Assembly: GCF_963576615.1 (NCBI RefSeq)
Contig: NC_088710.1
Coordinates: 186,001 to 250,000, forward strand
Length of the DNA stretch: 64,000 nt
From: Watersipora subatra
Lineage: Eukaryota; Bryozoa; Gymnolaemata; Cheilostomatida; Watersiporidae
Direction of reading: 5' to 3'
Translations under genes and position numbers: made by a program
Shown: one piece after another, positions 4,510 to 64,000 of the stretch
How positions within the stretch are numbered: position 1 is the stretch's first letter
Layout: each line of letters opens with the position of its first letter
Notes under the pieces: model-generated
What the model was told of the DNA's origin: nothing
Databases searched by the model: none
The model's input: only the letters and a program-made list of their open reading frames with translations

Positions 4510-5100
4510 AAAATTAAAAGCAGGTATATCTACGTAAAAACAGCTGTCATATCAAAGTTGATCTCATGAGCAGGTGTACCTAAGTAGAAATAGCTGTCAT
4601 ATCAAAGTTGATCTCATGAGCAGGTGTACCTAAGTAGAAATAGCTGTCATATCAAAGTTGATCTCATGAGCAGGTGTACCTAAGTAGAAATAGCTGTCAT
4701 ATCAAAGTTGATCTCATGAGCAGGTGTACCTAAGTAGAAACAGCTGTCATATCAAAGTTGATCTCATGAGCAGGTGTACCTAAGTAAAAACAGCTGTCAT
4801 ATCAAAGTTGATCTCATGAGCAGGTGTACCTAAGTAGAAATAGCTGTCATATCAAAGTTGATCTCATGAGCAGGTGTACCTAAGTAGAAACAGCTGTCAT
4901 ATCAAAGTTGATCTCATGAGCAGGTGTACCTAAGTAGAAACAGCTGTCATATCAAAGTTGATCTCATGAGCAGGTGTACCTAAGTAGAAATAGCTGTCAT
5001 ATCAAAGTTGATCTCATGAGCAGGTGTACCTAAGTAAAAACAGCTGTCATATCAAAGTTGATCTCATGAGCTGGTGTACCTAAGTAGAAATAGTTGTCAC
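4510..5100 (+). repeat. 50-bp minisatellite, about 12 near-identical units
   Basis: Units contain ATCTCATGAGCAGGTGTACC followed by TAAGTAGAAATAGCTGTCAT and ATCAAAGTTG. Only a few substitutions occur between units (tagctg/cagctg, gtagaa/gtaaaa), so expansion was recent. It lies directly upstream of the Skeletor-like gene and is followed by an AAGTCAGGCTGACA-type repeat (5170-5260) that recurs in intron 1 at 7790-7960. Confidence 0.9.
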
Positions 5101-11500: not shown

Positions 11501-14500
11501 TTCAAGGATAACCAAGTGATTTGATATCTGTAGTAGTTCAAGGATAACCAAGTGATTTGATATCTGTAGTAGTTCAAAGATAACAAAGTGATCTGATACC
11601 TGTAGTAGTTCAAGGGTAACCAAGTGATCTGATATCTGTAGTAGTTCAAGGATAACCAAGTGATTTGATATCTGTAGTAGTTCAAAGATAACAAAGTGAT
11701 CTGATATCTGTAGTAGTTCAAACATAACCAAGTTATCTAATATCTGTAATAGCGCAAGGATAACCAAGTGACCTGATATCTGTAGTAGTTCAAGGGTAAC
11801 CAAGTTATCTGATATCTGTAGTAGTTCAAGGATAACCAAGTGATCTGATACCTGTAATAGTTCAAGGGTAACCAAGTGATCTGATACCTGTAGTAGTTCA
11901 AGGGTAACCAAGTGATCTGATACCTGTAGTAGTTCAAGGGTAACCAAGTGATCTGATATCTGTAGTAGTTCAAGGGTAACCAAGTGATCTGACATCTGTA
12001 GTAGTTCAAGGATAACAAAGTGATCTGATATCTGTAGTAGCTCAAGGATAACAAAGTGATCTGATATCTGTAGTAGTTCAAGGATAACCAAGTAATCTGA
12101 TATCTGTAGTAGTTCAAGGGTAACCAAGTGATCTGATACCTGTAGTAGTTCGAGGATAACAAAGTGATTTGATATCTGTGGTAGCTCAAGGATAACCAAG
12201 TGATCTGATACCTGTAATAGTTCAAGGGTAACAAAGTGATCTGATACCTGTAGTAGTTCAAGGGTAATCAAGTGATCTGATATCTGTAGTAGTTCAAGGG
12301 TAACCAAGTGATCTGATACCTGTATTAGTTCAAGGGTAATCAAGTGATCTGATATCTGTAGTAGTTCAAGGGTAACCAAGTGATATGACATCTGTAGTAG
12401 TTCAAGGATAACAAAGTGATCTGATATCTGTAGTAGTTCAAGGATAACCAAGTTATCTGATATCTGTAGTAGTTCAAGGATAACCAAGTGATTTGATACC
12501 TGTAATAGTTCAAGGGTAACCAAGTGATCTGATATCTGTAGTAGTTCAAGGGTAACCAAGTGATCTGATACCTGTAGTAGTTCAAGGATAACAAAGTGAT
12601 CTGATATCTGTAGTAGTTCAAGGATAACCAAACGATCTGATACCTGTAATAGTTCAAGGGTAACCAAGTGATCTGATATCTGTAGTAGTTCAAGGATAAC
12701 CAAGTTATCTGACATCTGTAGTAGTTCAAGGATAACCAAGTGATCTGATACCTGTAGTAGTTCAAGGATAACCAAGTTATCTGATATCTGTAGTAGTTCA
12801 AGGATAACCAAGTGATCTGATACCTGTAGTAGTTCAAGGGTAACCAAGTGATCTGATATCTGTAGTAGTTCAAACATAACCAAGTTATCTGATATCTGTA
12901 GTAGTTCAAGGATAACCAAGTGATCTGATACCTGTAGTAGTTCAAGGGTAACCAAGTGATCTGATATCTGTAGTAGTTCAAGGGTAACCAAGTGATCTGA
13001 TACCTGTAGTAGTTCAAGGATTACAAAGTGACCTGATATCTGTAGTAGTTCAAGGGTAACAAAGTGATCTGATATCTGTAGCAGTTCAATGATAACCAAG
13101 TGATCAGATACCTGTAGCAGTTCAAGGATAACCAAGTGATCTGATACCTGTAGTAGTTCAAGGATAACAAAGTGATCTGATATCTGTAGTAGTTCAAGGA
13201 TAACCAAACGATCTGATACCTGTAATAGTTCAAGGGTAACCAAGTGATCTGATATCTGTAGTAGTTCAAGGGTAACCAAGTGATCTGATACCTGTAGTAG
13301 TTCAAGGATAACCAAGTTATCTGATATCTGTAGTAGTTCAAGGGTAACCAAGTGATCTGACATCTGTAGTAGTTCAAGGATAACCAAGTGATCTGATACC
13401 TGTAGTAGTTCAAGGATAACCAAGTTATCTGATATCTGTAGTAGTTCAAGGATAACCAAGTGATCTGATACCTGTAGTAGTTCAAGGGTAACCAAGTGAT
13501 CTGATATCTGTAGTAGTTCAAGGATAACCAAGTGATCTGATACCTGTAGTAGTTCAAGGGTAACCAAGTGATCTGATATCTGTAGTAGTTCAAGGGTAAC
13601 CAAGTGATCTGATACCTGTAGTAGTTCAAGGATAACAAAGTGACCTGATATCTGTAGTAGTTCAAGGGTAACAAAGTGATCTGATATCTGTAGCAGTTCA
13701 ATGATAACCAAGTGATCAGATACCTGTAGCAGTTCAAGGATAACCAAGTTATCTGATATCTGTAGTATTTCAATGATAACCAAGTGATTTGATACCTGTA
13801 GTAATTCAAGGGTAGTCAAGTGTGTTTTTATTTTTAGTAAACAAACAACAAGATTAAACATGGAGTGTGAACATAAAGTGAACATGCATTTTTACAGTTA
13901 TAGGGTTAGTTATACATGTCTAAATTAAAATGTGCTTTCAACTTGGTAGCTTTAAAGCTTTGCAACTTCCACTTCTGTGGTTTCTTCCAACTCACATTTT
14001 CTGCTTCCCTTTCAGGGTCATCTTTTTTCAGACTTCAACTCCAACTTGTTACTTAACCTGGCAACCAATCATTTACATAACCCAAACATAAAAAATTCTA
14101 GTTTATGCTCATGTAGTTATTGGGCAGTTTAACCGATTTTAACACTGGAGGGGCCACCTATTAGCTAAGGCTGTACCAGTTTAGGATCCAAGTCTACTGG
14201 TAGTCATTCTTACTCCTTATACCAGCAAATGCAATGAGACACAAATTTGTCTTTTGTTTAAGAGTCTTTGTACACCTGTCTGTCTGTTTGTCTGTGATGA
14301 ATTAATCTGTTAATATTATTTACAAAAACAGCTCATTTTTATTATTGTGTAACTTACTTTTTTAATGCATAATAGTTCCTATGCTGAATAATTATTATAT
14401 AACTGATGTATATAGGTCATTGTACTACTAGAACTACAAACTCATAGTTTTATAGATAAGGCTGCTCTTATTCAATTAGTGATTTCAATTTCTTCATATG

Positions 14501-17500
14501 AGTTCAGACTCATACAAGTTTATTCCTAAAATACTCATTCTGTAGAAAACCTTTTTATCCAAAGATAATCTTGCAGAGTTTCCTTGTTTGTTTCAACCCT
14601 GGTGGTTTACTACTACTAATAGTTCAGGCGTCTCACATATGTAAATCTTTCAATTAATCTTATTTCTTCACTAGTAATGATTATGCTTAACTTATTATAA
14701 GCTTATGCTTATTATGATTAATAGACATCATTGTGATCTCTTTAAAGCTGGTTTTATGAACATTTGTAACCACATGTTAGTACCTGCCATCACTTGCCAT
14801 CATATCTGTCAGTTGCCTACCTGAAACAGATCTAGAAAAGTGCTGAATCAACATTTTGACATACTCGAACTATCATGCTACAAGTTGTTTCATGTACTCC
14901 GTGCTATCTTTCCTAGTCTGGAGTGTTTGAAACAGAAGCTTCAGTCGTCCACATTATATCATATTATTTGCTGGAGTTGTATGCATTAGCCAGTAGACTT
15001 CACCATGGACTCTTCTAGTATGATGAGCAGTTTTCTTATTTCTTACTCACATCTGATGGATGCTGATCAGTGAATGACTGTTACAAGATGAGTGAGGATA
15101 TTTTGTAGGTCAGGTTTAAGGTCATATGAAAGAGAGAAACTGGTTCTTCAACTTCCTAATGGCAGCTCTATTACGCAATTTACTTACATAGGTGTGGGAA
15201 TACTTTCCAGTATGGTAAGAAAATCTCAAACAATAAAATTCACCATGATGAATCAGATCTCTGACTGAAAGCCTGGATAAGCTAGAATATTAGCAATTAA
15301 TGAAGCATTTATTTCTTTAAAATCAACAGCGGTATTAAGTTCCGAAGTCTCCTGTATCCTCAAGTTCAGAATTAGGTTTTGTATAAAGATGACTTTTGTT
15401 TATGTATTTTATGTTGCTGCCTTTTCCTACACCTGGACTCTTTCGTAGCGGATCTTCTTTAGTTTAACTCATATCTATACATTTGAAATGAAAGCCCTAG
15501 TGTACATACAGATATCTTATACATAGAGGATATGTGTATAGTGTACATACAGATACCTTATACATAGAGGATATGTGTACAGTGTACATCCAGATACCTT
15601 ATACATGGAGGGTATGTGTATAGTGTACATACAGATATCTTATACATAGAGGGTATGTGTATAGTGTACATCCAGATACCTTATACACAGAGGGTATGTG
15701 TATAGTGTACATACAGATACCATATACATAAAGGGTATGTGTATAGTGTACATACAGATATCTTATACATAGAGGATATGTGTATAGTGTACATCCAGAT
15801 ACCTTATACACAGAGGGTATGTGTATAGTGTACATACAGATACCTTATACATAGAGGATATGTGTATAGTGTACATACAGATACCATATACATAAAGGGT
15901 ATGTGTATAGTGTACATACAGATACTTTATACATAAAGGGTATGTGTATAGTGTACATACAGGTACCTTATACATAAAGGGTATGTGTATAGTGTGCATA
16001 CAGATACCTTATACATAAAGGGTATGTGTATAGTGTACATACAGATACTTTATACATATAGGGTATGTGTATAGTGTGCATACAGATACCTTATACATAA
16101 AGGGTATGTGTATAGTGTGCATACAGATACCTTATACATAAAGGGTATGTGTATAGTGTACATACAGGTACCTTATACATAAAGGGTATGTGTATAGTGT
16201 ACATACAGATACTTTATACATAAAGGGTATGTGTATAGTGTACATACAGGTACCTTATACATAAAGGGTATGTGCATAGTGTACATACAGATACCTTATA
16301 CATAAAGGGTATGTGTATAGTGTACATACAGATACCTTATACATAAAGGGTATGTGTATAGTGTACATACAGATACCTTATACATAAAGGGTATGTGTAT
16401 AGTGTACATACAGATACCATATACATGGAGGGTGTGTGTATAGTGTACATGCAGATACCTAATCCATAGAGGGTATGTGTATAGTGTACATGCAATTACC
16501 CTATCCATAGAGGGTATGGGTATAATGTACTTGTAGATACCTTATACATATAGGGTATGTGTACAGTCTACAGTGTACATATAAATACTTTATATATAAA
16601 GGGTATGTGTACAGTGTACAGTGTACATACAGATACCTTATATGTGCATGGTATTTGAAATGATTTGTAGGCCTCTCACAGCAGCAGAATAACTAGATTA
16701 GTTTATTTGCTGATTGTCATACTCATATGCCTTGTTTATAGAGGGTCAATGTAGGCCTGCCTAGATTTGTGTAAATGCTCAATAACTGAATGCCTGCCAT
16801 ATACCAGGAATGTTATTGCTGGTGTCAACCGCGAATCATCTTTTCAACCTATTTATTACCATATTAATAGGATAATGTTGAAAGTCGCGTGTAGAAGATA
16901 ACTCCAAGTTTATGATAGTTATTCAGCACACCTTTACCTCATCAACGCTAGAGTTGTTTTTTTTACCATTACAACAGTTATTACATACATTTCAAGGAGC
17001 TACTAGGAGGAGCAGATATTCCTACTAGCTTTAGTGTTCCGGCTCCAGTAGAGATAGGGACATTTACAACGCGTGCCCATTTGGTCAGCTCTGGTACTGT
17101 CACTGTACTCACAGATCGATTGATTCAAATTAAAGCATTCACTTATGATGGCAATGGTCCAGGTATGTATTTCTCAGTGGAACTCTTGTGTCGTATGTGA
17201 AACTTTTAGTAAATAAATGAGGTTGTCAGAGACTTTACAGTCCATTAAAGCAATAGTTTCAATAGATTTAATTAGCAACACCATTCATAGTTTAAGTTAA
17301 TAGTGTGCTTCATAGACTTATCTGCTAGCATATTCATTAGTTTTGTGCTACAAGTGCCTCCAGTAAAGCCTCAATATGACTTGGATGCCTGTTGGTAATA
17401 CATATACATGTAGATAGCACATGTTCCGGTCTTTCTCCTTCAAGGTTCAATTGATGTGTAACAGTTTGGAAATTTCCTAGAATGACATCCAAGTCCTATT

Positions 17501-20500
17501 GCTTTTTGGTACAAGTGCATTACTCCATCTTGCACATTTAGACCGTGACAATCTTAATTGTTCACGATGCCAACTCATTGGTTTGGACAACTATTCACTT
17601 TAGGAATTAGTGAGTCATAATTTCCTGCTACTCTAAAACTCTGGGTTACTGTACAGGCTTGTCTCTCTCTAGGCCTATAAACTCTGGGTTACTGTACAGG
17701 CTTGTCTCTCTCTAGGCCTATAAACTCTGGGTTACTGTATAGGCTTGTCTCTCTCTAGGCCTATAAACTCTGGCTTACTGTACAGGCTTGTCTCTCTCTA
17801 GGCCTATAAACTCTGGGTTACTGTACAGGCTTGTCTCTCTCTAGGCCTATAAACTCTGGGTTACTGTGCAGGCTTGTCTCTCTCTAGGCCTATAAACTCT
17901 GGGTTACTGTACAGGCTTGTCCCTCTCTAGGCCTATAAACTCTGATATTTTAATCACAGTTTTGCTAATCAAGATGGCTTGAGAGCTTGAATCTCAACCA
18001 ATGTTTAGTTTTAGTAACTGAAAAAACAACGCTCTTGCTTTGGTTAGTAGATGAGTTTCTAAATTTAAACTAAGAACTAGTTGCGAGTTATTTTTATTGC
18101 AGATGCTTTCTTTTACGTTGGTACTACAGACAGAGTGTCTATCCAGAGAGCACCTTATGGAATAATACCAGATGAAAATGGAGTAACGTAGGCTTTATTT
18201 CTGTTTACTGCTTGCCAAAACCGTGTTCCGGTTAAACTATTCTGTTTTGGAATACCTGAGACTTGCAACAGCTACTAACAGCTATTAACAGCTACTAACA
18301 GCTACTAACAGCTATTAACAGCTACTAACAGCTATTAACAGCTTATTAACAGCTATTAACAGCTTATTAACAGCTATTAACAGCTACTAACAGCTATTAA
18401 CAGCTACTAACAGCCACTAACAGCCACTAACAGCTATTAACAGCTATTAACAGCTATTAACAGCTACTAACAGCCACTAACAACTATTAACAGCTATTAA
18501 CAGCTGCTAACAGCTACTAACAGCTATTAACAGCTATAAAATGGCAAACCTGAATATTTTTCCTCTTGCATATTTTGATGTTCATTATAACCTATTCTTA
18601 CCTACTTGCTATATGAAAGCACTTGTTATATGCAAGCGCTTGCTATATGTAAGAACTTGCTATATGTAAGCGCTTGCTATATGTAAGCACTTGCTATATG
18701 TAAGCGCTTGCTATATGTAAGTACTTTCAGTACAGCTTTTGTTGGCCTGTTAACAAACCGGGTGTAACACTGAGCCGTTAAACTGTGTTATGTTATGAGT
18801 GAAAGTGTGGGTTTCAGGAATCTGTCATATGCTCTGGATTATTCTAAAAAAACTTGCTTGTGTTTTGTCGAATTATGGTTCACTGTTTTTGCTTATTTTT
18901 TTCATGTCTTCCCTAGAGCTACGAAGGCAGGCCGATACAACTCTAAAGACATAACTCTCACCCTCCCCAGCACCATATCAGCTACAGATCTTAAATGGCT
19001 CAGCATGTTTTGCATCTCCTACAGCCACAATTTTGGAGAAGTTGTCTTTCCAAGCAACTTGAATGTGCCGGCTCATATTGATACAGGTGAGGATATGGTG
19101 TATGATTGGCTCAAGTAAAAACCTATAGAATAATTTGCTCAGTTATTCATTGTGTTAAACATATTTTAACATGCACTATGAGTTGGTTTGTTAAAACCTA
19201 TTTAAGGCTGGATGTGTGGTTCTGTTGTAACTTGCCATTGTTGTCAAAAGAAAACCATGGTTGAAAGAGAGTTCATAACAACAGGAATTGTTGAGGGTCT
19301 TCCACTGACTTCTGTGTTCAGTTGGTTAGTAGCTACAAAAGTATTTATGCAGAGGTCAATGCTCCTGTTGAGGCATTGTCTCCATAGTGTCTAGTAATCG
19401 GCCTTGGTTAGTGGTAGCTACAGTTGTCAGCCTTAGTGGTTGCTACAGCTGTCAGCCTTGATCAGTGGTAGCTACAGCTGTTAGCCTTGGTCAGTGGTAG
19501 CTACAGTTGTCAGCCTTGGTCAGTAGTAGCTACAGCTGTCAGCCTTGGTCAGTGGTAGCTACAGCTGTCAGCCTTGGTCAGTGGTGGCTACAGCTGTTAG
19601 CCTTGGTCAGTAGTAGCTACAGCTGTCAGCCTTGGTCAGTGGTAGCTACAGTTGTCAGCCTTAGTGGTTGCTACAGCTGTCAGCCTTGATCAGTGGTAGC
19701 TACAGCTGTTAGCCTTGGTCAGTGGTAGCTACAGTTGTCAGCCTTGGTCAGTAGTAGCTACAGCTGTCAGCCTTGGTCAGTGGTAGCTACAACTGTTAGC
19801 CTTGCTCAGTGGTAGCTACAACTGTTAGCCTTGGTCAGTAGTAGCTACAGCTGTTAGCCTTGGTCAGTAGTAGCTACAGCTGTTAGCCTTGGTCAGTGGT
19901 AGCTACAGCTGTCAGCCTTGGTCAGTGGTAGCTACAGCTGTCAGCCTTGGTCAGTGGTAGCTACAGCTGTTAGCCTTGGTCAGTGGTAGCTACAGTTGTC
20001 AGCCTTGGTCAGTAGTAGCTACAGCTGTCAGCCTTGGTCAGTGGTAGCTACAACTGTTAGCCTTGCTCAGTGGTAGCTACAACTGTTAGCCTTGGTCAGT
20101 AGTAGCTACAGCTGTTAGCCTTGGTCAGTAGTAGCTACAGCTGTTAGCCTTGGTCAATGGTAGCTACAACTGTCAGCCTTGGTCAGTAGTAGCTACAGCT
20201 GTCAGCCTTGGTCAGTGGTAGCTACAACTGTTAGCCTTGCTCAGTAGTAGCTATAGTTGTCAGCCTTGGTCAGTGGTAGCTACAGCTGTTAGCCTTGGTC
20301 AGTGGTAGCTACAACTGTCAGCCTTGGTTAGTGGTAGTTACAGTTGTCAGCCTTGGTCAGTGATAGCTACAGTTGTCAGCCTTGGTCATTAGTAGCTACA
20401 GTTGTCAGCCTTTGTTAGTGGTAGCTACAGCCGTCAGCCTTGGTCAGTGGTAGCTACAGCCGTCAGCCTTGGTCAGTGGTAGCTACAGCTGTTAGCCTTG

Positions 20501-23500
20501 GTCAGTGGTAGCTACAACTGTCAGCCTTGGTTAGTGGTAGCTACAGCTGTTAGCCTTGGTCAGTGGTAGCTACAGTTGTTAGCCTTGGTCAGTGATAGCT
20601 ACAGTTGTCAGCCTTGGTCAGTGGTAGCTACATCCGTCAGCCTTGGTCAGTGGTAGCTACAGCTGTTAGCCTTGGTCAGTGGTAGCTACAACTGTCAGCC
20701 TTGGTTAGTGGTAGTTACAGTTGTCAGCTTTGGTCAGTGATAGCTACAGTTGTCAGCCTTGGTCATTAGTAGCTACAGTTGTCAGCCTTGGTCAGTGGTA
20801 GCTACAGCCGTCAGCCTTGGTCAGTGGTAGCTACAGTTGTCAGCCTTTGTCATTGGTAGCTACAGCCGTCAGCCTTGGTCAGTGGTAGCTACAGCTGTTA
20901 GCCTTGGTCAGTGGTAGCTACAGTTGTCAGCCTTTGTTAGTGGTAGCTACAGTTGTTAGCCTTGGTCAGTAGTAGCTACAGTTGTTAGCCTTAGTCAGTA
21001 GTAGCTACAGTTGTTAGCCTTGGTCAGTAGTAGCTACAGTTGTTAGCCTTGGTCAGTAGTAGCTACAGCTGTCAGCCTTGATTAGTAGTAGCTACAGCTG
21101 TCAGCCTTGGTCAGTAGTAGCTACAGCTGTCAGCCTTGATCAGTAGTAGCTACAGTTGTCATTTGGTTTAAAATATTATTGTATTGTTCCTCTCGTCTCT
21201 GTAATTTACCATTTAGCTGAAACTTAATAAAAACTCAATGTATTTTTTTTACGATTATGAGTGTCTCCTTCCATTGAAAACAGATTCACGTTGAACTATG
21301 AAAGTCTCATGTATGATAAGGCAAATATGATGAGTTATGGATTAGAAGTAATGAAGCTGTTAGGGTGAGCCACTTATTATACATGTACTTGTCAACTCTC
21401 TGAACATTATATGATAAAACTTTTACAAGGCCTTCAACTATGTTGTCTGGAATCACTGAGTGGTTAATCTTGACTATATTAGAGCTCATAGCATCTGTCT
21501 CTGACTAGAGTAAACTAAGAAGTAAAACCAACCAAACACACTCAGACTTCTTAGTAATTGCATCAATGAAATTATTTATAGCTGCTGACTACTTTGTCAC
21601 ATGTTTTATTTGATTCACTATAAAGCATTAGCTAAGAACCTATCATGTATTATAGCACTAGACATTTTGTGTCCAGCGGGTAAGCGGGTAACGGCCTAAC
21701 AGTTTCAGTGTATGGATTGTAGTTGTACCAGCTGCCAATGAGGAAGTTAACTGCGAAGCACTGAGTGATGACCTTCAGATATCTTGGTCCATATCTGGAG
21801 GCAACATTATTATGGAGTTGGCTGGAAGAATCGGTAAGTCATGGCCATTAGTTGTTAAAATTATGGTAACGGTGCTTCTTAGGTCGGTAAAACGCGCATA
21901 CAACGCATGCGCAACATGCATACAAGGCTCTAGCAACGCACAAACATTACGAATACAACGCGCATACACTAGCATCACAACGAAAAAAACGCATTAAAGA
22001 GCTCAAGGTTGCTATACAAAGGAGTTTAATGTTTTAGATAACTGTTTTATAACAGATAATAAATAGAATACTTTGTGTAATGTTTTAGACTTGTTTTATT
22101 AACACACTATAAATATAAATATTTTGTTGTTAATGCGTTGTTAATTATTAGTGTCGGAGTTGTATCCACAATGTATGTGCGTTGCTAGTGCATTGTGTGT
22201 GTGTTGCTAGTGCGTTGCTAGTGCGTTGTATGTGCGTTGCTAGTGCGTTGTATGCGCGTTTTACCGACCTAAGATGCACCGTTACCAAAATTATTGCTTT
22301 CAATGAGATTGTTTAGAAATTATTTACAAAATAATTCGGTGGAAAACTTTGTTTTAGCATTGAAACCTTCCCTTCTAAACAGAGATAGTGCAACAACAAT
22401 GTTTTTAATTAACGTCATTGTGCAATATACGTATATATATATATACATATATGTATACAATATGTGTATATATACATATATTGTATACAATAATTGTGTA
22501 CAATATATGTATACAAGTAGTCTAACTAACCATTGGCTGCCTGAGGACTGGCGTAAGTAGTCTGACTATTGGCTATCTGAAGACTGGCCATAACTAGTTG
22601 AGCTAACTATTGGCTCTCTAAGAATTGGCCATAAGGAGTCTAGCTAACTATTGGCTATCTGAAGACTGGCCATAACTAGTCGAGCGAACTATTGGCTGTC
22701 TGAGAATTGGCCATAAGTAGTCTAGCTAACTATTGGCTGCTTGAGGACTGCAGGAAATACCCGTATTCGTCCTGGTCATGTCATGAGATGCTACTGGAAA
22801 CCTTTAAGGCTGTTTGATCAAGAGTTGTCTTGCCATGTAAATTAGTTCCACCTAAGCAAGCTAATTGGGAAACTAGTTGATGAGTAAAGTTACATGTATC
22901 TGTATTGTGCAATGAAGGTTAGACTAATGTAGACTGAATGATTGATGTATGAAGGCACAGTGACACACCAGGAACATCTTGCTCTAATGAATAGATAGCA
23001 TGGTCACAACACTCTCTGATTATTCCTTATCTGCTTTACAACTGCTATTACACAGACAGGAGCACTGACTACATGGCATTTGGACTGAGTGGCAGCACCG
23101 AAAGACCCATGATGATTGGCTCAGATGTAGTGGTAGTCGACTATAGAGAAGGCATGGAGCCTCGAGCAATAGATTATTATATTGAAGGATACTCACAGGT
23201 ACATGTATAAGCGTTGTTAACAAACCTTGTAAGTAGGTACATACATGTACCTACTTGTGGAAAAGTTTTCAAGTTCAGTCTACTAGTTCAATAGGTTTTC
23301 TAGATAAGAGTTGTCCGTGTACTTAATTCTCAAATGTACATATCTGCAGCTTGAGTATGTGTATTCAGTGCTCAACATTTGGAGGAGTGTGTCCAGATTC
23401 AAGTCCATTTCTCTCTTCAAATGATGATGCTTCTGTGATAAATGGAGAGGTAAATCAAGGGATCACACGTGTGTCGTACCGCAGATCACTGACCACAGGT

Positions 23501-26500
23501 ACACAGGCTAGACAGTCACTTGATGCAAAATTTATATTTTGCTGTGATTCAATAGATGCTATTTACTTATTGTACCTTTGATCTTCTTTTATATATACTT
23601 GTACCGCCTATATTTTCTCAGCATTGAGTCACTCTGTAACTCTCCATGCAACTATATACCTACAGCTGACATTGCAACCGGCAAAGATCAGGAGTATTTG
23701 ACAGATGGCACTTTTCAGCAGATAGTCTGGTCTGTTGGTCCAATTAACTCCCTCGATCAGGCAGCTAAACACTATACTGTTGGAGGACGAATAACTGGTA
23801 GGAGTTATCCGCTCAGCTCTCTAGTTTAGATTACTTTAGTAAATCTGAACAAAATCAAACAGTAATATAATATTTTCTTCATCTGCGTGCATTTTTCTAT
23901 TTCAGCTTCAAAAACTATCAACTTTGGGCGATCAAAAATTAACAACTGTCCAGTATTTGGCGTTCAGGAAAGACAGGAGTTGCCTCTTTTCAAACCTCAT
24001 CACCTTTATGGAAAGGAAGGAGTTGTCTTCACAGTAGAGATCGGTCCATCATGGTCAGAGCAAGGCTATAAAGCTATCACAGGTAAAGAGACTGAACGCC
24101 TTCCTGATGAGGCTGCAAGGGCTTTAAAACTAGACTACTATTTATCCATTTAAAGAATGGTGACAGAAACTAGTAAACAACAAGTAGACGTCATACTTGT
24201 CACAGTTGCAGAAAGAATACTGACGAGCATCTTCATTGTTATTATTATTATTGTTATTATTATTATTATTACGGCTGCTACATTGTTTCTCTGTTTCTGC
24301 CAAGCTTTAATTTTAAAAAACATTAAATATATTAAAATATATTATTATCCTCTTAAATTGTTAACAAATTTTGCCAGGTAATCTCTCTTTTTTATCACCA
24401 GTACACTTTAACTGTGAGATCTGAAAAGATTTAGCCTGTTCACTCTCGAAGCGTCTCATAGAAAACTTACACTTGTTTGCCTAAGGTAAAGCATTGGAAC
24501 ATATATTTAGTTTTTAACAAACTACCGTAGCAAGTACATGTATATATTTCAACTTCCATTCTACGTGTAGCTGGGGCACTATATATAAACTAGTATGTAT
24601 TTTGTTTAACATTTGCTTTGCTTTGTATAGATTTCTATTAGGATTTCTCTTGCCCTGTCTATGCAGTATGAGCTATTAAACTGCATTGTGGGTTTGCTGT
24701 AAGAAAAGATGTACAGTTAAATGTGCGCCGATAATTTGCTGTTTAGATTTTTCCAACGTTTCTTCCTAGGCCTCCCTTCATGGGGCATAGCTTGGTACAT
24801 CAATGGACTCCTTGTACCAGAGTTGCATTTGAAGAGAGGCGTGTCATATACATTCAAAGTAGCTGGAGGAACTGACAGTAGGGAAGCATCAAGATACCAC
24901 CCCTTCTATTTCACCGATAGCCCCGAAGGCGGCTATGGACAGGTAGAGTTAAACTAACCTGTTTACCAACTTTCATACACACATCTATGATGAGGTCTGA
25001 TCCTTCCTTTGTCCTTGATGAGAAACTTTACCTTCTGTCATGTGTCCGTACCTTGGTTACAGAACTTCATGTATAATTAATGTTTGTATCTTTGGTCATA
25101 CATATTCACTGTCAGTCATACACCTTTGTTTCCGGTTACAAAATTTCGCCTTTTGTTACAAAACAGTTTTTTTGTTACAAACCCTCTTTTTGGTTACACT
25201 CTTTTATTTTAGTTAACTTTTTAGTAGCAGAACTTCACTCATTGTTATATATTGTGGTTGCGTTGCAGTCTGGAGAAGGGAACATCTATGAAGGAATGGT
25301 AGCAGAAGAGCTGCAGAACTTTGCAGGTAATTGTTGTACCCTGACACTTTGCATGCCTTCAACCTGCTTTTCAGGTGTTTATGCAGCATTCTGCTAGCCA
25401 ATCAACAGCCACAACATACCCCTTAAATTATTAGACAATTTGTATTTTTCAATATTTTTCTGCAGTGGGTGACTATTGTGAGTGGAAGTTCAACATTGAA
25501 GCAGAAGACAAAATTTACCAATGTTTTGAGGAATTACAGAAAGACCTCTATTTGGAGTGTGTAAATGACAGCATCGGGTACACGGAATTTGTTTTCACTC
25601 CTGGCAGCCAGCATCCAGACACCATCTACTACCAGGTAAAGAGAAGATGTCATGGAATGGCTTTAAGCTATTGAGTAGCGATCAGCTCATACTTTAAAAA
25701 GGCAAAGTTTAATTAATAGACCAAAACAGAAGTTTATTTAAGGATACAAACACGAATAGTTCACTGCTCATCCCATCTCAGTGAGCTTATCTCAGGCTCT
25801 TTGTTTAGCAATGTGCCATAAACTTTGAATAGTACAAAAACATGCCATTTAGCAATTGTTACATGAAAGGTTTTGCTGCAAAACTGACCGAGCTGATCTA
25901 AAATTTCTGATATTATATTAATTATAATTATATTAATAAATTTATAAAATTTCAATCAAAATTATTATAGAAAGTAATATTTTTATTGAAGGGTTTTTTA
26001 TGAATTATCCTTTACATATGAAGTTAGTTCATTTTGAGATCTGCCTTGAATGTTGGAGGAAACATTCGTATGACAACAGATTGTAATTTGTCCAACCATT
26101 TTGACAGCTGAAAGACTTATTATAGTCACTGCAGGTAATGACAGATGTAAGGTGAAAGCTACGTGTAGAAAACTAAATTATTAAAGAAAAAATAAATACA
26201 AATATATTTTCATTACTACTTTACTCTTTGAAGCATACAAGGTGCAGTGTAGGATTCCCTAGAGACATACAAGGTGCAGTGTAAGATTCCCTAGAGACAT
26301 ACAAGGTGCAGTGTAGGATTCCTTAGAGACATACAAGGTGCAGTGTAGAATTCCTTAGACACAAGGTGCAGTGTTGGCTTAGAGACATACAAGGTGCAGT
26401 GTTGGCTTAGAGACATACAAGGTGCAGGGTTGGCTTAGAGACATACAAGGTGCTGTGTTGGCTTATAGAGATATGTAAATTTAAAAACAAAGGTAATAAT

Positions 26501-33827: not shown

Positions 33828-36800
33828 ATGGAGGTCAACATTATCGGCCTCGTCGCTGTCGTAGTTTTTTACATTTTAATCTTGGCCGTTGGAATAGTTG
33901 CTGGCAGAAAGAGCAAGTCAACAGAGAGCAATGCTGACACTGAAGAGGTTATGGTGGCCGGCAGAAATATTGGACTCGTTGTTGGCGTGTTTACTATGAC
34001 AGGTAAAGAAGTGATATATTTATAGAATCAGTTCTGTCGAAGCCTTTTGTTTCATCGGTGGCTTCACTGTTACATCATATTTTAAAAGTTTAGTTTTTTA
34101 TATGTTGTGGTTATGTACATCTTGTTTAAATGGCATGCTCAGGGTAAAATTGTTCCCCAGCCTCTCATAGATACCTAGCTTAACTGTACTATGTACTCAG
34201 CAAAACCTTTCTTTTGGCAGCATAGTGATGGAAGGCAAATTTGCTTTTGAAGAAGTGAATTGTTGAAGGCCAATGCAAAGCGCATTATTGCCGATATGTC
34301 TTTAAACCGATCAACAATTGCAAAGACTTGTTGTCGTAAATACATTGCCAAAAACTCAAGCTTAATTGTTAGGTATTCATTTCTAAATGGGAGTGCTTTT
34401 CAAGTGATTGTGGGTTTTAGAAATTTTAAACAAATTTGAACATAGTTTGCGTTAAACTAATAGCTGCTCACTTGAAATCCGGTAAGGTTTAAAAGAGGCT
34501 TTATAAAATTTTATTGCAAGATTTCAAAAATTAGTTTTTCAGCAGTTTACCAGCCAATCTAGGTATTTGAATTCATGCTTTCACCATTGGCCACTTGGAC
34601 AGAGTTAACCTTGAATATATTGACCAACTCCTAATATAAGAAGTTGTACCTCACTTAGAGCAATAGTTTCTAGCTTGACAGTTTTTTCTGTGATGTCACG
34701 CAGGTTAGAAGTGATGGGAATTCCTACCTGCAGATAACACTATTCTGATACTTTGCTTATTTCATTTTAGTGGAAGTTTTTTTATCAAACTTAACAGCAA
34801 CAATTTTATGCATACAAACATGTAATTGGTGTTATTTTTAGCAACATGGGTTGGAGGTGGATATATCAATGGCACATCAGAGAATGTCTACAGACAAGAC
34901 GTTGGCTTAGTCTGGGTTCAGGCACCATTTGGCTACTGTCTCAGCCTCATTTTTGGTAAATATGATATTCTTACATATAAAGACCTCACTGCTTGCGTGT
35001 CTGCTTCATATTGTTTTATGGGTCTTTAGAATCTCTTAAATTTTTCCTGTTTTATTTAGGAGGCATATTCTTTGCTAAGAAGATGAGAAAGGCTGGATAT
35101 GTTACAATGCTCGACCCTTTCCAGCAGAAGTTCGGAGAGAGGATGGGAGGCTTGCTGTTTATACCTGCACTTTGCGGTGAAATCTTTTGGAGCGCTGCCA
35201 TATTGGCAGCCCTAGGTCAGTAGTGTATAGTAGCCTTAGGTCAGTATTTTATAGTAGCCCTAAGTCAGTATTCTATAGTAGCCTTAGGTCAGTATTCTAT
35301 GGTAGCCTTAGGTCGGTGGTTGATGGTAGCCTTATGTCAGTATTCTATGGTAGTCTTAGGTTAGCATTCTATGGCAGCTCAAGGTCACTAGTCTATGGTA
35401 GCCTTAGGTCAGTGTTCTACAGTAGCCCTAGGTCAGTATTCTATAGTAGCCTTAAGTCAGTATTCATGGTAGCCGTAAGTCAGCATTCCAGGGCAGCCCT
35501 AGGTCCGTTGTCTATGGTAGCGTTAGGCCAGTATTCTATGGTAGCCTTGGCTCAGTATTTTATGGTAGCCTTAGGTCAGTATTCTATGGTAGCCCTAGGT
35601 CCGTGGTCTATGGTAGCCTTAAGTCAGTATTCTATGCTAGTTTTAGGTTAGTATTCTATGGTAGCTCAAGGTCAGTAGTCTATGGCAGCCTTAGGTCAGT
35701 AATCTAACTAAATCTCCAATTACTGCTTATCTAGATATGTGAGTCTTCCATGTTTCATGAACCTACGTCCATATTCACTCTGCAGGTTCTACACTCTCAG
35801 TAATTATTGGTCTGAAGATAGAAATATCGGTCATCATATCTGCCTGCATCGCTATCCTCTACACATTGTTTGGAGGCCTCTACGCCGTCGCCTACACAGA
35901 TGTGGTGCAACTTATCTGCATATTCGTTGGTCTGGTAAGAACAAGGACGTCTGGCTGCCCAGAATGTTTGGCATGAGTCGTGCAATCAAGCATACTCTGA
36001 GGCTATGAATCAAGCATACTCTGAGGCTGTGATAATTGATTAAATATTGGTTTTTAAACCTAGTTGAGGTTTCTTTAAATTCAATTATGCTTCTGTCAAA
36101 CTGGCTTATAGATTTGACCAGCAAAACTAAGCTTGTCTGTTAATTGACTTAGTTCTTTCTATCGATAAGAAATGCAAAGATAATGGTAGCGGTGTTTAGG
36201 AATCTTGCGCTGGCGTGATTGCTAATTTACGGGGAGCCGTGTCAAGGGACGGCGGTTTGCCCACATGCCTATTACATCCTTCTTTCTCAAGGGTATGCAA
36301 TCTTGTAGGTTGTCTCTGCTCCATTTGTTCTCACAAATGAGCATGTTCGTCCCATTCTTGAGACAGCGCAGAACAGTGTCAATGAAAATGGCACAGCAAC
36401 TACTGGCTGGTTGGGATCCCTCGAGGTTGGCCCAAGCATTGGGTACTACATAGACACCGGTCTAATGCTCATGTTTGGAGGAATCCCTTGGCAGGTAAGG
36501 AATTATATTCTTGTAATATCTGAGTCACACTAAAACTCTACCAAACCAGCGGAAGCAGCTTTCCACAAAGGTCATCTCGCTGAAGTACATGTAGTTAGTA
36601 TCTTATTATCTGATTGGTTACTGAGACATGGCCTTAAGCGAGCCTAGTCGCAGATCATAGTCTATGTAAAATCTATTAATTCTAGACAAGCGATCTATCA
36701 TCTTTTTAGGTCTACTTCCAGAGAGTCCTCTCTTGCAAGACTTCTCAGGGTGCACAACTCCTTTCATTTGTAGCAGCTTTTGGTTGCTTTATCATGGCCA

Positions 36801-39800
36801 TTCCTCCAGTGCTAATAGGAGCAGCAGCATTTAGCTGTGGTAAGTACACTGAAAGTATTTACATGTAGATATAGCAAATACAGTCAAACCATTTTGGTGA
36901 AATTGATAAAGTCAAACCATTTAAATGTGGTAGATACAGTCACACTATTTAGCTGTGGTAAGTACAGTCACACTATTTAGCTGTGGTAAGTACAGTCACA
37001 CTACTTAGCTGTGGTAAGTACAGTCACACTATTTAGCTGTGGTAAGTACAGTCACACTATTTAGCTGTGGTTAGTACAGTCACACTATTTAGCTGTGGTA
37101 AGTACAGTCACACTATTTAGCTGTAGTAAGTGCAGTCACACTATTTAGCTTTAGTAAGTACAGTCACACTATTTAGCTGTGGTAAGTACAGTCACACTAA
37201 TTAGCTGTGGTAAGTACAGTCAAACAGAAGTAACCTTTTGGTTACACTCATAGAGCCGATTATTGCAAATTAGGAAAATTTGCATTTCACTCTTAGTATG
37301 ACATTTATTTTTACTGTTTTTGTTATGGTTATATTATGGTTGTATTATATTATGGCTGTATTACATTATGTTATATTATATTATGTTAAATTATATTATG
37401 GTTATATTATGTTATATTATACTATATTATGTTATATTATATTATGTTATATTATATTATGTTATATTATATTATGTTATATTATAGAAGAAAAGTTATA
37501 CAATTCAACCTCATAATGCTGTCTGGTCATTAATAGACATTCGTTCTAGACCTCTAAAGATTTAGTGTGAATGAGGGAGTTGTAAGTGTCGCTAGCCCGC
37601 TGAAGGTACATGTATTTGTTAATACATGAAAAAGTTTTCATAGTAGATAATATAAGTATAAACATAAATATTCATAGTTGTTAACAAAATTAACATACAT
37701 GTTTATAGTGGTTAATAAAATTATTAACATAAATGCTTAGTCATTAATTAAATTAATAACACATGTTTTAGTAGCTGATAAAACAGAGATCTGAACAGTT
37801 GAGCATTTTGTGTGAATATTTGAAATTTGTGTGCAATTGGATACTTGCTAGAAATCATGTAGATTTATCACTTCATAAATTATTGATCAGCCACTGAAGA
37901 CCTAACTATAAAATTTGATGCGCTTTCCTAATTTGGAGAGTTGAAACAGGCTAGCACTGCAAAGGTTGCCAAACTTATGTACAGTAGCTGTATAACAAAT
38001 GGTAGAGGTTATTATTGTTTAACTGTTAGTTCTGTAGTCTGCTTCACGTCTTGTAAAGGCAGCCAGCGCTACTTGCTGCCTAACTGCTTACATAAAATGA
38101 AGCTCATCAGCATCTCTGCATGGCTAGAAAATACCAGAAAACAATCATTCCTTTTAGACTGGGAGAAAGCTCTCAATAAGTCAACTGTTCATCACGCTCC
38201 TCCTGATCCAACAATGATTCTTCCGATGTCACTGCAGTACCTTGTGCCACCCGCTGTCTCATTTATCGGTCTGGGAGCGATATCCGCAGCTGTAATGTCT
38301 TCAGCTGATTCGTCCATTCTTTCCGCTAGCTCAATGTTTGCAAGGAATGTCTATAAGCTAACAATTCGACCAAAGGTACGAAAAATGTTTAGAAACAGGA
38401 TACGAGTGTGTTGAGTCAAGATAAGGCTATGATTGTAGTAAGAACTAGTTTGAGATGAGGTGATGATGGAAGTTGAAACACCTAAATCTTCATTCTATTT
38501 TGTAATTCTACATCATTAGGCTTACTTTGATCAAGTAGGTGAATTTTATACCATCATTAATATTAACATAACTTAATATCACATGAGCACATTTTATGTA
38601 ACACCAGCATTATTTCTCTTCTGCATATTTGAAGTATATTATGTGTCTACATGTTGACATCCCTATTATACTTTAATAAAAGTCTACGGCTCTTTTTTGC
38701 AGGCGAGTGAAAAGGAGATTGTGTGGGTCATGAGAGTTTGTGTGTTTGTTTTTGGGGCACTAGCAACTGTGATGGGCATTCTTATAAAGACTATATATGG
38801 CCTCTGGACTCTCTGCTCCGATCTTGTCTACGTAATCCTCTTTCCCCAACTCGTCTGCGTTGTTTACTGCCCATTCGTAAGCAAACTTATTATAAACTCT
38901 TTGCCTTCATTGATTGGTTACTTTACGTCATGATTACAGAGGGTAGAGACGTATGCTTATATGTGCAGGTCAACACATATGGCGCTCTCAGTGGATATAT
39001 CGTTGGTATTACCCTAAGGCTGCTAGGAGGTGAAAGTATTCTCAAACTCCCACCAGTCATCAAGTACCCTATGTATGAAGATGGAGTACAGAATTTCCCT
39101 TTCAAAACTCTCAACATGCTCATTGCATTGTTCACTGAAATCGCTGTGTCGGGTATGGTTACGTTTGATCTGCTCAGTCGTGTCATGCCAATATTACAGT
39201 CGCTGTCTGTAGTCTCTAGAATGTTCTCCATACCTGCTAGATGAGTCACGAACATTGTATTCATTTGCCTTTAGCTTTAATGAAAAGGCTGTTCGACAAG
39301 GGTACACTCTCTCCCCAACATGATTTCTTGAAAGCTGTTGTTGAAGAGCGCACAGGCAATGCTTATATTTCATCTACAAGTGGTATGGCTGATAAGACTG
39401 CAAGTAAAACAGATGTCACTCAACAGGAAGCAGATGAGGTAAACTCTATAAAACTATAAATAATCTATATACATTTTTCAAAGTTAGTCGTGCGTGTAGT
39501 CGTTCATCATTGTGATTGTCCAGCTATAGTTATTAAAACCTTGGAATGAAGAATCCGTATCGCATGAGATTTGATCTCTGAACCTCCCATTCACCAACCC
39601 GACACCTTACTAATTAAGCCACACGAGCTCAGTACATTCATCAGGCAATAAATGTCAACATATGGGAGCAAATACGCTACCGCTTTCCGTCACAATGCAA
39701 AGTGATGGTGTAACGTCATGAGAAGCTGTAGCTCTTATTAGTAAGCTTAATCAAATTGTCCTTTGGCAATGTGCCAGGCTAATAGCGAGTGGCAGGCAAC

Positions 39801-43280: not shown

Positions 43281-44079
43281 TGACTTAAGCAGTATCGGTC
43301 ACACAAATATGTAAAATATAGTTTGCATGGATTACAACATGTGATGACTTGATAACAATTTTCCAGGCATTTATTTCCAGATATCGTGTATAAATTATTG
43401 AAGATATGTGAAACTTTCTACAAATATGAAAGAGTAATCTGTACAAGCTATTGTAGAAATTCTAATTTCCATCTTTCTGTTCATACATGTTGTTATTGCA
43501 ATGTAATTGAGTCAACTTTTAATACTTAAAAATAAAATGTTGTAGTGTTGAAATTCCTGGACTGGTATGTGAATAGATTTACACATACTATAGAACTTGT
43601 AGTATGCATAAATGTCTATTACCACTGATCATATTAGCATTATTAATTTATTACCATTATCTGTCTTTTACCGTTGATCGTTGGTTACATTACTTAGGCA
43701 TGCTGCCTTAATCTAGCACAAATAGTGTAAGAGCTTAATTATGTTTTAAATAATGATGTGAATTGTTATCAATTTTGAGAGGTCAGCAACTTTTCGCTGC
43801 GAATTTGGTAATATGAAATGTGGAAGTAGATTTTATGTGTGCAAATGCAAAGTTATCTTTATAATAAAATGTTTTTGAACTTCAAATTGACATCTAAAAT
43901 ACAATTATAAGTGGCGAGAGGACTCTTTACAGCTACACTGAAACCGTCAAGCTCCTTAGATTTTATTTACGAAATGGCATGCATCTAGGTAGAGGTAATG
44001 TGTAGTTTTTCCGATTGTATGTCTGAAAACATAGCTTTTACTGCAAGTTGTTTGTTTTAATAAGCAGCTCATTCAAAAA

Positions 44080-44979
44080 TGGGGGACCATCACCTATGTT
44101 CACAAAGATTCTAACCACTCGCCTAACATCATTAAAATTATACTACTGGCAATTAACAAAAGACTCTCAGAAATTTCATCAGAAGAAAATGCCTTCAGCA
44201 AAGCTGCCCCTATTTATCAGGAAGTATTAGCAAAGAGCGGATACCAACACAAGCTAGAATTCTCCTCACCTAGAGCTCAACAACTAAAGGCAAGAAATAG
44301 ACAAAGAAAGAGAAATACAATCTGGTATAACCCCCCTTACAGCAACACCGTACACACCAACATCGAGAAAACTTTCTTCAAATTAATCGATGAAGAATTT
44401 TCCACTGACCACCAGCTACACAAAATCTGTAACAGAAATATTATAAAACTAAGCTATAGCTGCATGAACAATGTGAAACAGGCAATCAACTTTCACAATC
44501 AGAAGCTACTATCACTGAACAATCAAGAAACAACTAATCCTGGCTGCAATTGCAGAAATAAGAACACCTGCCCATTACCAGACAATTGCCTAGCAAAATC
44601 AGTGATATACCAGGTAAACGTAACAACCACCGATAACAAAAAACCTGTAGCCACATGTGTAGGGCTAACCGAAAACAGCTTCAAAACTAGATATAGCCAT
44701 CACAAATTGACATTCAAAGACATTTTTAAACCCCACTCTACCGAGCTAAGCAGCTACATATGGGACCTCAAAGAAAGCAGCACCGACTATCACATAACTT
44801 GGAAGATTTTATCACACGCCAAGCCTTACTCTAAAAACAGCGGAAATTGCAAGTTATATACTTTGGAAAAATATTTCATCATTTACAGACCTGAGAAGGC
44901 AACTCTAAACAAACGTAGTGAACTAATATCTACCTGTAAACATTCTAAGAAAGATCTTTTACGAAATAGCGTTACATAA
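44080..44979 (+). mobile_element. Penelope-like retroelement, 3' fragment with GIY-YIG nuclease
   Basis: A single open frame of about 300 codons ends at TAA 44977-44979. It begins inside the element (ITYVHKDSNHSPNIIK), runs through the IWYNPPYS...KLSYSCMNN block typical of the linker after the reverse transcriptase, then a cysteine cluster (CNCRNKNTCPLPDNCL) and a GIY-YIG endonuclease (VIYQV, TCVGLTENSFKTRYSHH). The reverse transcriptase core is missing, as expected from 5' truncation on insertion. The reading frame itself is undamaged, which suggests a fairly recent copy. This matches the canonical RT-plus-GIY-YIG architecture of Penelope-like elements; mobility is lost. Confidence 0.85.
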
Positions 44980-61664: not shown

Positions 61665-61840
61665 TGATAACAAACCCCAAAATGCTTTTTAAATGCATTT
61701 TTATTTATATGCAATAACTTTCATTTCAGGGAAACTGATAGTTCGCAGGCGGAAAAAATAACAGAAGTTAGAGGAACAGATTCAAAAGCTCAAGAGACAG
61801 CTGGAGCAGGGAAAACGAACAATAAATAGCTACTGGCGGG

Positions 61841-64000
61841 AATGCTCTGGAGGTTGTTTGTGATTTCGAGATTAGTCTCCACGAAGCGGTAAAATCAGCA
61901 TGGCCCAATGTAGCAATATGTGGGTGCTATTTCCACTTCACCCAGAGTGTTTCTCGGAAGGTGGCAGCGCTTGGTCTGAAATCCGCATACCAGAAAGATT
62001 GTAATGTTCAAGATATTGTACAAAAGCTATCAAGTATGGGCTTCCTTCCACCACATCACGTGATCGGGGCATTTGAGTGAGTTGTATTAAATTAGCATGA
62101 CTGTTTAATGAAGATTTTTATTGTTATATATGTTTATTTATTTCATTTGAAATTCCTATAGTAAAAACGTGGTCTGCCTTAACATGATAATCATTTGAAC
62201 AGTTGAAACTGGGTTGTGAAATGTATATATCCTTGGATAGTTTTCTCAAGTTAAACACCTTTATTAGACAAAGTCCAGGCAACAACTGTTACAGGTGCGA
62301 TGACTAATTATGCAATGAACTGGCTTATTAAGATATAAATTATCTAAACATACAAGTAGGAGACAATAATGATGTAAGGTCACAGAGAAAGGGTTATAGT
62401 ACCATTTTCAACATGAACAAATGCTGATCAGCAGATGTGTGCATTAAAAATTGGTTTAAAAGCAAATAGGCCTGTTTTCTGAAATATGGCATTGATAGGA
62501 TTAACCATCACTTTATTACTAACGAATATATTGGATGAAACCTTTCATCTGGCTTCTTCAAAAATAATATAACTTATAAGTATAATATAACTTCAGTGTA
62601 AATTCAAAGCAACCAAAAAATATGAGCTACCAATTGCCATGAAACAGTTTTACAAAGTACATATTTTGCAAGAGAGCAAATGCAGCAAACGTTTGAGTTC
62701 GCCACCTATAAATCCAACCAAACATCTCATAGTATGATTTCCACCATGCTTCCTCGATGACATCTGAATCCTTAATTAATGTTTTCTCATTTCCTATTGT
62801 AGTAGCTTAAAGAGCTCAGTAGCTGTAAGAGAGGCGGCGAAACATTTCCCAGCCATGGAGATGTTACTAGCCTATTTCCATGATACCTTTATACACGGAG
62901 TCATTCCAATCAGTGTATGGAATGTATATTTTCGAGACATAAGCACACGGACTAACAACTATGTGGAAGGTGAATATAAAAAGCTGAAACAAATTACAAT
63001 ATCAAAAAACTCAGACATCGTCCTTTACACAATATTAGTGATGCTTGGAAATTCGGCTTCCCCAGTTATTGCATATTGTTTACATTTGTGGAATATGTTG
63101 AATCTTGTTAACAAAAATATCTGTCAGCAAAACAATTCTCGCCAGCAGTATGCAGGCAGATTTTTATTCTTAAGACTATATTCTATAATGATACATCATG
63201 TGCCGATATCCTTTGATTCTGATTCATATTATTCTGCTGTTTTAACATATTGAAAACCAGCAAAGTTTATTGACACTCAATTTATAATTTTGTCTTCCTC
63301 AAAGTAATTCAATAAAAAAGAGAAGCGTTCAAAAAGCCGCTGCCTTCACTACAAACTTTAAGTATTTTACTGCATATGTGCATATCAAACATTACGTAGA
63401 CGACAGTGCGAATGTGCAGTCCCCAGTATTTAGGCTAAGATCCTAAAAGGCTCGTGAGCATACAGCAATCTGCTGTAAATCAGAAATAAGCTTCCACAAA
63501 AAAAATAAAAGCTGTATGCAATTTTTATCCGAAATTTTGGATTAAAAAAGATCATTCGTATAGCTTAATCATACTATGAGTTTATTCAGCAGTGTTTGTC
63601 TTTTATGCCTAGCCTGGAACAGCCATTTCAATGACGTCGTTGGAAGGAAGCACCCTTCGATATGGCTTCTCATTTCATGTCTAAAAGATGAAGAAGTGTT
63701 GTATAAACAACGAGCCGCAGCTGCTGAAAAAGGTTTGTCTTTTTACGAAAAAATATAGGAACGATCATTATAATCTACCTTCTTTGGCAAACCATATATA
63801 TATATATATATATACCCTAAACGCTTTTCAAATGCATTTTTATTTATATGCAATAATTTTCATTTCAGGGAAACTGATAGTTCGCAGGCGCAAAAAGTGG
63901 CAGAAGTTAGAAGAACGAATCCAAAAGCTCAAGAGACAGCTGGAGCAGGGAAAGCGAACAATAACTAGCTATTGGCGAGCGATAAAATATGCTGTGAATG
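61841..64000 (+). CDS. MULE-domain transposase-derived gene, copy B (open, 5'-truncated, runs off window)
   Basis: Exons: 61841-62076 (ALEVVCDFEISLHEAVK, CGCYFHFTQSVSRKVAALGL, GFLPPHHVIGAFE), 62803-62969 (ISVWNVYFRDISTRTNNYVE), 63613-63732 (WNSHFNDVVGRKHPSIW) and 63869 onward (GKLIVRRRKKWQKLEERIQKL). Splice sites are GT-AG and phases 2, 1, 1 join without stops. This is the MULE transposase-like fold: the DFE acidic motif, the C-x-FH motif and the RTNN-VEG signature are in the expected order, with a coiled, basic C-terminus. The first exon has no acceptor; it is fused directly to the coil exon of copy A at about 61838-61841, which is the duplication breakpoint. Whether it is expressed is unknown; the missing 5' end argues against a full transposase. 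Confidence 0.65.
63786..63812. repeat. TA microsatellite
   Basis: A short (TA)n run in the intron before the coil exon of copy B. Confidence 0.8.

Follow-up and report, generated by a model that had tools for sequence, protein, structure and literature searches.

The window, i.e. the whole stretch of 64,000 nucleotides that was analysed, contains a gene related to the high-affinity choline transporters. Its translation, spliced from coding exons 1 to 8 and most of exon 9 (503 residues), is matched to human CHT1 over residues 3-498 (E-value: 3.2e-177), with 292 of the 490 aligned residues identical (60%). This protein has the Pfam SSF domain (E-value: 8.7e-41), and among solved chains that are not choline transporter entries the best match has an E-value of only 4.8e-11. 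On the basis of this similarity, the gene is predicted to encode a high-affinity choline transporter of the SLC5A7/CHT1 type, closest to CHT1 within the SSF family. All eight placed introns of the choline transporter (CHT) gene have GT-AG borders. Two minisatellites, designated arrays A and B, begin inside its exons and continue into the introns behind them. The coordinates of these features are listed in Table 1, where, as in the text, a slash marks the exon-intron junction.

Table 1. Choline transporter gene of the window, its coding exons and the two arrays that begin at its splice junctions.
Feature	Position	Strand	Basis
CHT1/SLC5A7-type gene (3' end provisional, more exons may follow)	33828..39244	+	homology, spliced model
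Coding exon 1	33828-34002	+	homology-placed
Coding exon 2	34842-34955	+	homology-placed
Coding exon 3, end ...AAILAAL G/	35060-35215	+	homology-placed
Array B: 24-bp minisatellite, 21 units (one of 23 bp)	35204..35706	+	TRF, unit cutting
Coding exon 4	35786-35934	+	homology-placed
Coding exon 5	36309-36494	+	homology-placed
Coding exon 6, end ...GAAAFSC G/	36710-36839	+	spliced model vs human CHT1 8j74
Array A: 28-bp minisatellite, 14 units (unit 2 of 34 nt), unit 1 being the exon 6 junction	36829..37226	+	TRF, pattern search, unit cutting
True exon 6 donor GTAAGT (GTG/GTAAGT), U1 pairing -8.8 kcal/mol	36840..36845	+	
Decoy donors of array A, whole set	36958..37215	+	copy counts, U1 pairing
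Decoys reading GTG/GTAAGT	36958, 36986, 37014, 37042, 37098, 37182, 37210	+	
Weaker decoy variants	37070, 37126, 37154	+	
Coding exon 7	38158-38375	+	homology-placed
Coding exon 8	38703-38876	+	homology-placed
Coding exon 9	38969 on, open frame to stop ending 39244	+	homology-placed

The positions of the two junctions follow from protein similarity. Exon 7 opens with AC TGG, such that splicing gives ...AFSCDW... over the exon 6/7 junction. Because the aligned counterpart of this segment is ASTDW in human CHT1 and FSADW in 9rws, another choline transporter chain (u172541; GFSADW in full), the exon 6 donor is well placed, and both the numbering of exon 6 (by coding exons) and its boundary, as given in a preliminary description of this DNA, are backed by homology to human CHT1. 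Exon 3 ends in AALG (compare human SALG), and the alignment with the human protein is gapless at both the exon 3 and the exon 6 junction. Both exon ends code for residues that have similar counterparts in related proteins, so the exons are likely to be the source of the arrays.

Unit 1 of array A consists of the last 11 bases of exon 6 plus the donor, and the register of the array starts in the exon. The 20-mer across this junction, ATTTAGCTGTGGTAAGTACA (36829-36848, donor G at 36840), has five exact copies in the intron (starting at 36947, 36975, 37031, 37087 and 37171). At up to 3 mismatches it has 11 matches, compared to a mean of 0.05 and a maximum of 1 in 100 dinucleotide shuffles. TRF reports a 28 bp period with 11.2 copies and 94% matches (36910-37222). 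These results confirm the preliminary description of a 28-bp minisatellite derived from a real 5' splice junction. Units 2 and 3, on the exon side, are decayed and unit 4 is partly so, with donors lost or weakened in units 2-4; units 5-14 are clean, with changes at 9 of 280 positions. All ten clean intronic copies keep GT, but the statement that each copy retains GTG/GTAAGT was too strong: seven of them do, and the remaining three read GTG/GTTAGT, GTA/GTAAGT and TTA/GTAAGT. GTGGTAAGT is found at only eight places on the + strand of the window, namely the true exon 6 donor and seven copies in array A. Each of these seven has the same U1 duplex energy as the true donor (-8.8 kcal/mol), so the suggestion that the array offers decoys to U1 holds for these, but not at equal strength for the three variant clean copies. 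By U1 pairing alone, seven copies are thus indistinguishable from the true donor of exon 6.

Array B is a second instance of a splice-junction array in the same gene, and was missed in the preliminary description. Exon 3 ends in ...GGCAGCCCTAG/GTCAGT, and unit 1 of array B is made up of the last 12 nt of this exon and the first 12 nt of intron 3; the boundary set by TRF itself (35204) also lies 12 nt inside the exon. The array accounts for 491 of the 570 nt of intron 3 (86%). As the residue of approximately 79 nt is near the length of the short introns of this gene (92 and 104 nt), most of intron 3 can be described as copied junction, which provides a concrete route for intron growth. Among the 20 intronic copies, GT is present in 18, AG/GT in 13 and the full TAG/GTCAGT in six, and six copies equal the true exon 3 donor in U1 pairing. 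Units 12 apart (approximately 287 bp) show on average 3.11 differences (9 pairs), compared to 4.5-5.7 at the other 14 lags in the range 1-15. Because units at this lag are the most alike, duplication of several units as one block is probable. The edge of array B is not more diverged than its interior (two changes in the last unit, up to six in inner units).

Splice sites were surveyed at 18 donors, eight in the CHT gene and ten in a second gene with DM13 and DOMON matches, which we take to be Skeletor-like, and at 16 acceptors. The ten donors of the second gene were set by eye from the DM13/DOMON matches and the splice consensus; for the two that lack a placed acceptor, 2000 nt were searched. 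A junction 24-mer was counted as recurring at 16 or more of 24 positions, and for acceptors up to 3500 nt of the preceding intron were searched. By this measure (best match 21), 20 copies of the exon 3 junction are found in intron 3 and 12 copies of the exon 6 junction in intron 6, whereas none of the other 16 donors has a match in the stretch behind it and none of the 16 acceptors (0/16) has one in the preceding intron. Donor arrays are therefore present at 2 of 18 placed donors and acceptor arrays at 0 of 16. Shuffled introns (first-order Markov samples, 100 per junction) gave matches as high as 18/24; for introns 3 and 6 the best matches in shuffles averaged 14.2 and 14.4, with maxima of 18 and 17. 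Because matches of 16-18/24 occur by chance in shuffled introns, the case rests on copy number and on the 28- and 24-bp registers. Two other arrays were considered and rejected, as the junction upstream of each has no intron match above shuffles: a 2-copy 24-bp repeat (35984-36032; upstream donor C4) and a 61-copy array (19401-21161; upstream donor S2). The former lies approximately 50 nt past the exon 4 donor.

Arrays of this kind have been described before. Mirages are minisatellite-like tandem repeats over exon-intron boundaries, reported in amphioxus Adh3, the globin genes BflGb6 and BflGb9 and other loci in PMC3087553, which also describes length instability, homogenised interiors and the exclusion of edges. 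The Adh3 mirage has units of 10-72 bp (Canestro et al. 2002, as relayed in PMC3087553), a range that includes the 28 and 24 bp of arrays A and B. PMC3902484 adds a mirage in TnC and, as a similar case, duplications in PGBD5. Like the amphioxus mirages, arrays A and B consist of boundary-spanning tandem units with splice signals in many copies: their units run in register from the ends of exons 6 and 3, at junctions placed by homology. A homogenised interior with diverged edges, as in BflGb6, is seen in array A and is absent from array B. The globin mirages differ in that their units are 150-160 bp long, with no more than six per described haplotype, and in that they are found at 3' junctions as well, unlike arrays A and B, which are two 5'-junction arrays of 14 and 21 units in one gene. 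By their anatomy, arrays A and B are a pair of mirages in a single gene, of a type already known from amphioxus. Among the open-licence papers listed, none showed a mirage in a choline transporter, and in PMC3188502 the word 'mirages' is used in a different sense. Mirages would be known from a wider range of animals should the host prove not to be a lancelet. With two arrays of donors equal in strength to the true sites, this gene offers a natural test of 5' splice site choice.

A second system that arrays A and B resemble is a minisatellite reportedly located in the human 6-16 gene (IFI6/G1P3), an assignment that fits the papers on G1P3 and IFI6 in which the report on this minisatellite is cited. 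That report, Turri et al. (1995), describes by its title a minisatellite that gives multiple splice donor sites, and it has been cited for 'interfering with gene splicing'. The likeness lies in the multiple splice donors that are carried. The difference, as far as the title goes, is that the human repeat provides donor sites in the transcript, whereas in the CHT gene the use of a decoy would meet an in-frame stop. Reading on past the true donor, the stop is reached after 5 nt of the intron behind exon 3 and after 26 nt of that behind exon 6, so splicing from array copies further downstream would give a truncated frame.

The model that we consider very probable is that arrays A and B are mirage-type minisatellites that grew from a duplication spanning a donor, and that the first donor is the one used. 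The initial event would have been a tandem duplication of short length, 28 bp for exon 6 and 24 bp for exon 3, that took in the last 11-12 bases of the exon together with the 5' splice site. The array would then have extended into the intron through slippage or unequal exchange. Its first copy, being both coding exon and working donor, would be held by selection, and the remaining copies would drift. Splicing most likely proceeds from the first, exon-attached donor, with the decoys removed as part of the intron; rare use of a decoy would run into the in-frame stop and probably yield a transcript that is discarded. The main effect of the arrays would then be a lengthened intron. Against this model stand the seven decoys behind exon 6 and the six behind exon 3 that equal the true donors in U1 pairing, and some use of the intronic copies is possible, by analogy to the human 6-16 (IFI6) minisatellite.

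What caused the arrays to form at donors is a separate matter. In sequence this rich in minisatellites some arrays may simply land on donors, with no link to splice sites, and to this coincidence of cause we give an even chance. TRF finds 48 merged arrays in the window, covering 24% of the sequence; 28 have a period of 9-100 and at least three copies, and cover 22%. If these 28 arrays were seeded at random, 0.19 donor-spanning arrays would be expected (P of at least two: 0.015), or 0.36 with acceptors counted (P = 0.049). When every merged array with a period of at least 6 is included (47 in total), the expectation is 0.31 (P = 0.037), rising to 0.58 with acceptors (P = 0.11). Two of the three arrays of at least three copies in the CHT gene are anchored at donors, which speaks against coincidence, though the seeding test was made after both donor cases had been seen and has little power. 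Exons were placed for the CHT and Skeletor-like genes and arrays outside these were inspected by eye, so the window may contain further mirages. The excess of donor-spanning arrays over random seeding is suggestive. Coincidence bears on cause only, and leaves the anatomy of the arrays and their classification as mirages unaffected.

The opposite view of cause is that donors are preferred birthplaces of minisatellites in this genome, with breaks linked to transcription at the border of exon and intron as one conceivable cause, such that an intron would lengthen at its 5' end as its own splice site is copied. Mirages would in that case drive intron length generally in such animals, with the spliceosome routinely passing over long runs of donors of equal strength. 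At present we regard this broader proposal as doubtful.

The preliminary description had also raised the duplication of AGGT-type junctions as a route to new introns. Intron gain by tandem duplication has been proposed or described in several cases (Rogers 1989; ATP2A1, Hellsten 2011; fission yeast, Zhu & Niu 2013; potato RdRp), as summarized in passages of PMC4974935. The remark on AGGT does not fit array A, where the duplicated segment reads TG/GT, but does fit array B, with its AG/GT segment and AGGT in 13 of 20 intronic copies. The 24-bp units of array B also recall the fission yeast introns that lie across a duplicated 24 bp AGGT exonic segment (Zhu & Niu, via the same passages), and in PMC3087553 amphioxus mirages are themselves put forward as a way for introns to arise. 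In gain by tandem duplication, the intron arises between copies, whereas the copies in arrays A and B sit within a single intron, downstream of that intron's own donor. With 12 and 14 of 24 positions shared, the acceptors of introns 3 and 6 resemble the unit no more than random sites of the window do (means 12.3 and 12.7, 95th percentiles 14 and 15); neither acceptor falls within a copy, as the Rogers scheme would have it. Because creation of an intron by AGGT duplication would put a copy at the acceptor, intron birth is unsupported. The introns already exist, and the aligned human protein is gapless at both junctions. Intron gain or sliding under way, whether by the Rogers-type or the mirage route, is improbable.

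It is similarly improbable that the arrays form a splicing-control device, in which tandem donors would tie up U1 or redirect splicing towards forms that contain a stop, with copy number tuning the level of the transporter. Such a device would be consistent with the seven intronic copies that match the exon 6 donor in U1 pairing (-8.8) and the six that are identical to the exon 3 donor, and an unproductive-splicing switch would require in-frame stops past the true donors like those found. The stops fit either a switch or a harmless error that is discarded. In units 2-4 of array A, donors are lost or weakened. In array B, which is diverged enough for a test of column constraint (array A has too few changes), changes fall in 18 of the 180 cells of the nine donor columns, compared to 40 of 300 for the remaining 15 columns (Fisher P = 0.31; P = 0.25 when column labels are shuffled), such that neither preservation nor purging of decoys is detected. 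RNA folding of the two arrays is like that of shuffles (z = 0.50 and 0.23, 100 shuffles each). Published mirages are reported without aberrant mRNA where this was tested (PMC3087553 and PMC3902484); in the former, Adh3 data and globin RT-PCR suggest that regular splicing is undisturbed. The control device put forward in the preliminary description thus finds no backing in the donor columns, the RNA folding or the fate of decoy use.

False expansion of the junctions in assembly, to which short tandem arrays are prone, is extremely unlikely given the private variants of individual units, the units of 34 and 23 nt, the block-duplication signal and the many unrelated arrays elsewhere in the window, although the exact copy number of both arrays may be wrong.

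Several other features are present in the window. The Skeletor-like gene (16993-25635, +) has the halves of its DM13 domain on two exons, and its DOMON matches are below the Pfam cut-off. Its span includes four arrays with a period of 9-100 and at least three copies, in which none of its ten placed donors recurs. No tRNA and no Rfam match were found in the window, and the array unit has no copies in collections of viral and prokaryotic contigs, a result with little bearing on an animal array. At 61826-62080 (+) there is a fragment of a MULE transposase domain (E-value: 0.00014; 22.7 bits, below the Pfam cut-off of 27.6). An open frame of 314 aa (44035-44979, +) has only a weak Pfam match, to Dam (E-value: 0.0081), and presumably resembles the GIY-YIG end of Penelope-like elements. 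The longest array of the window measures 2.7 kb (11088-13822, 36 bp x 76). Three further arrays (2264-2583, 4519-5099 and 7416-7691) have units of 47-50 bp that appear related by eye (GGTGTACCTAAGTAGAAATAGCTGT-like), the first being oppositely oriented, and seem to belong to one dispersed minisatellite family.
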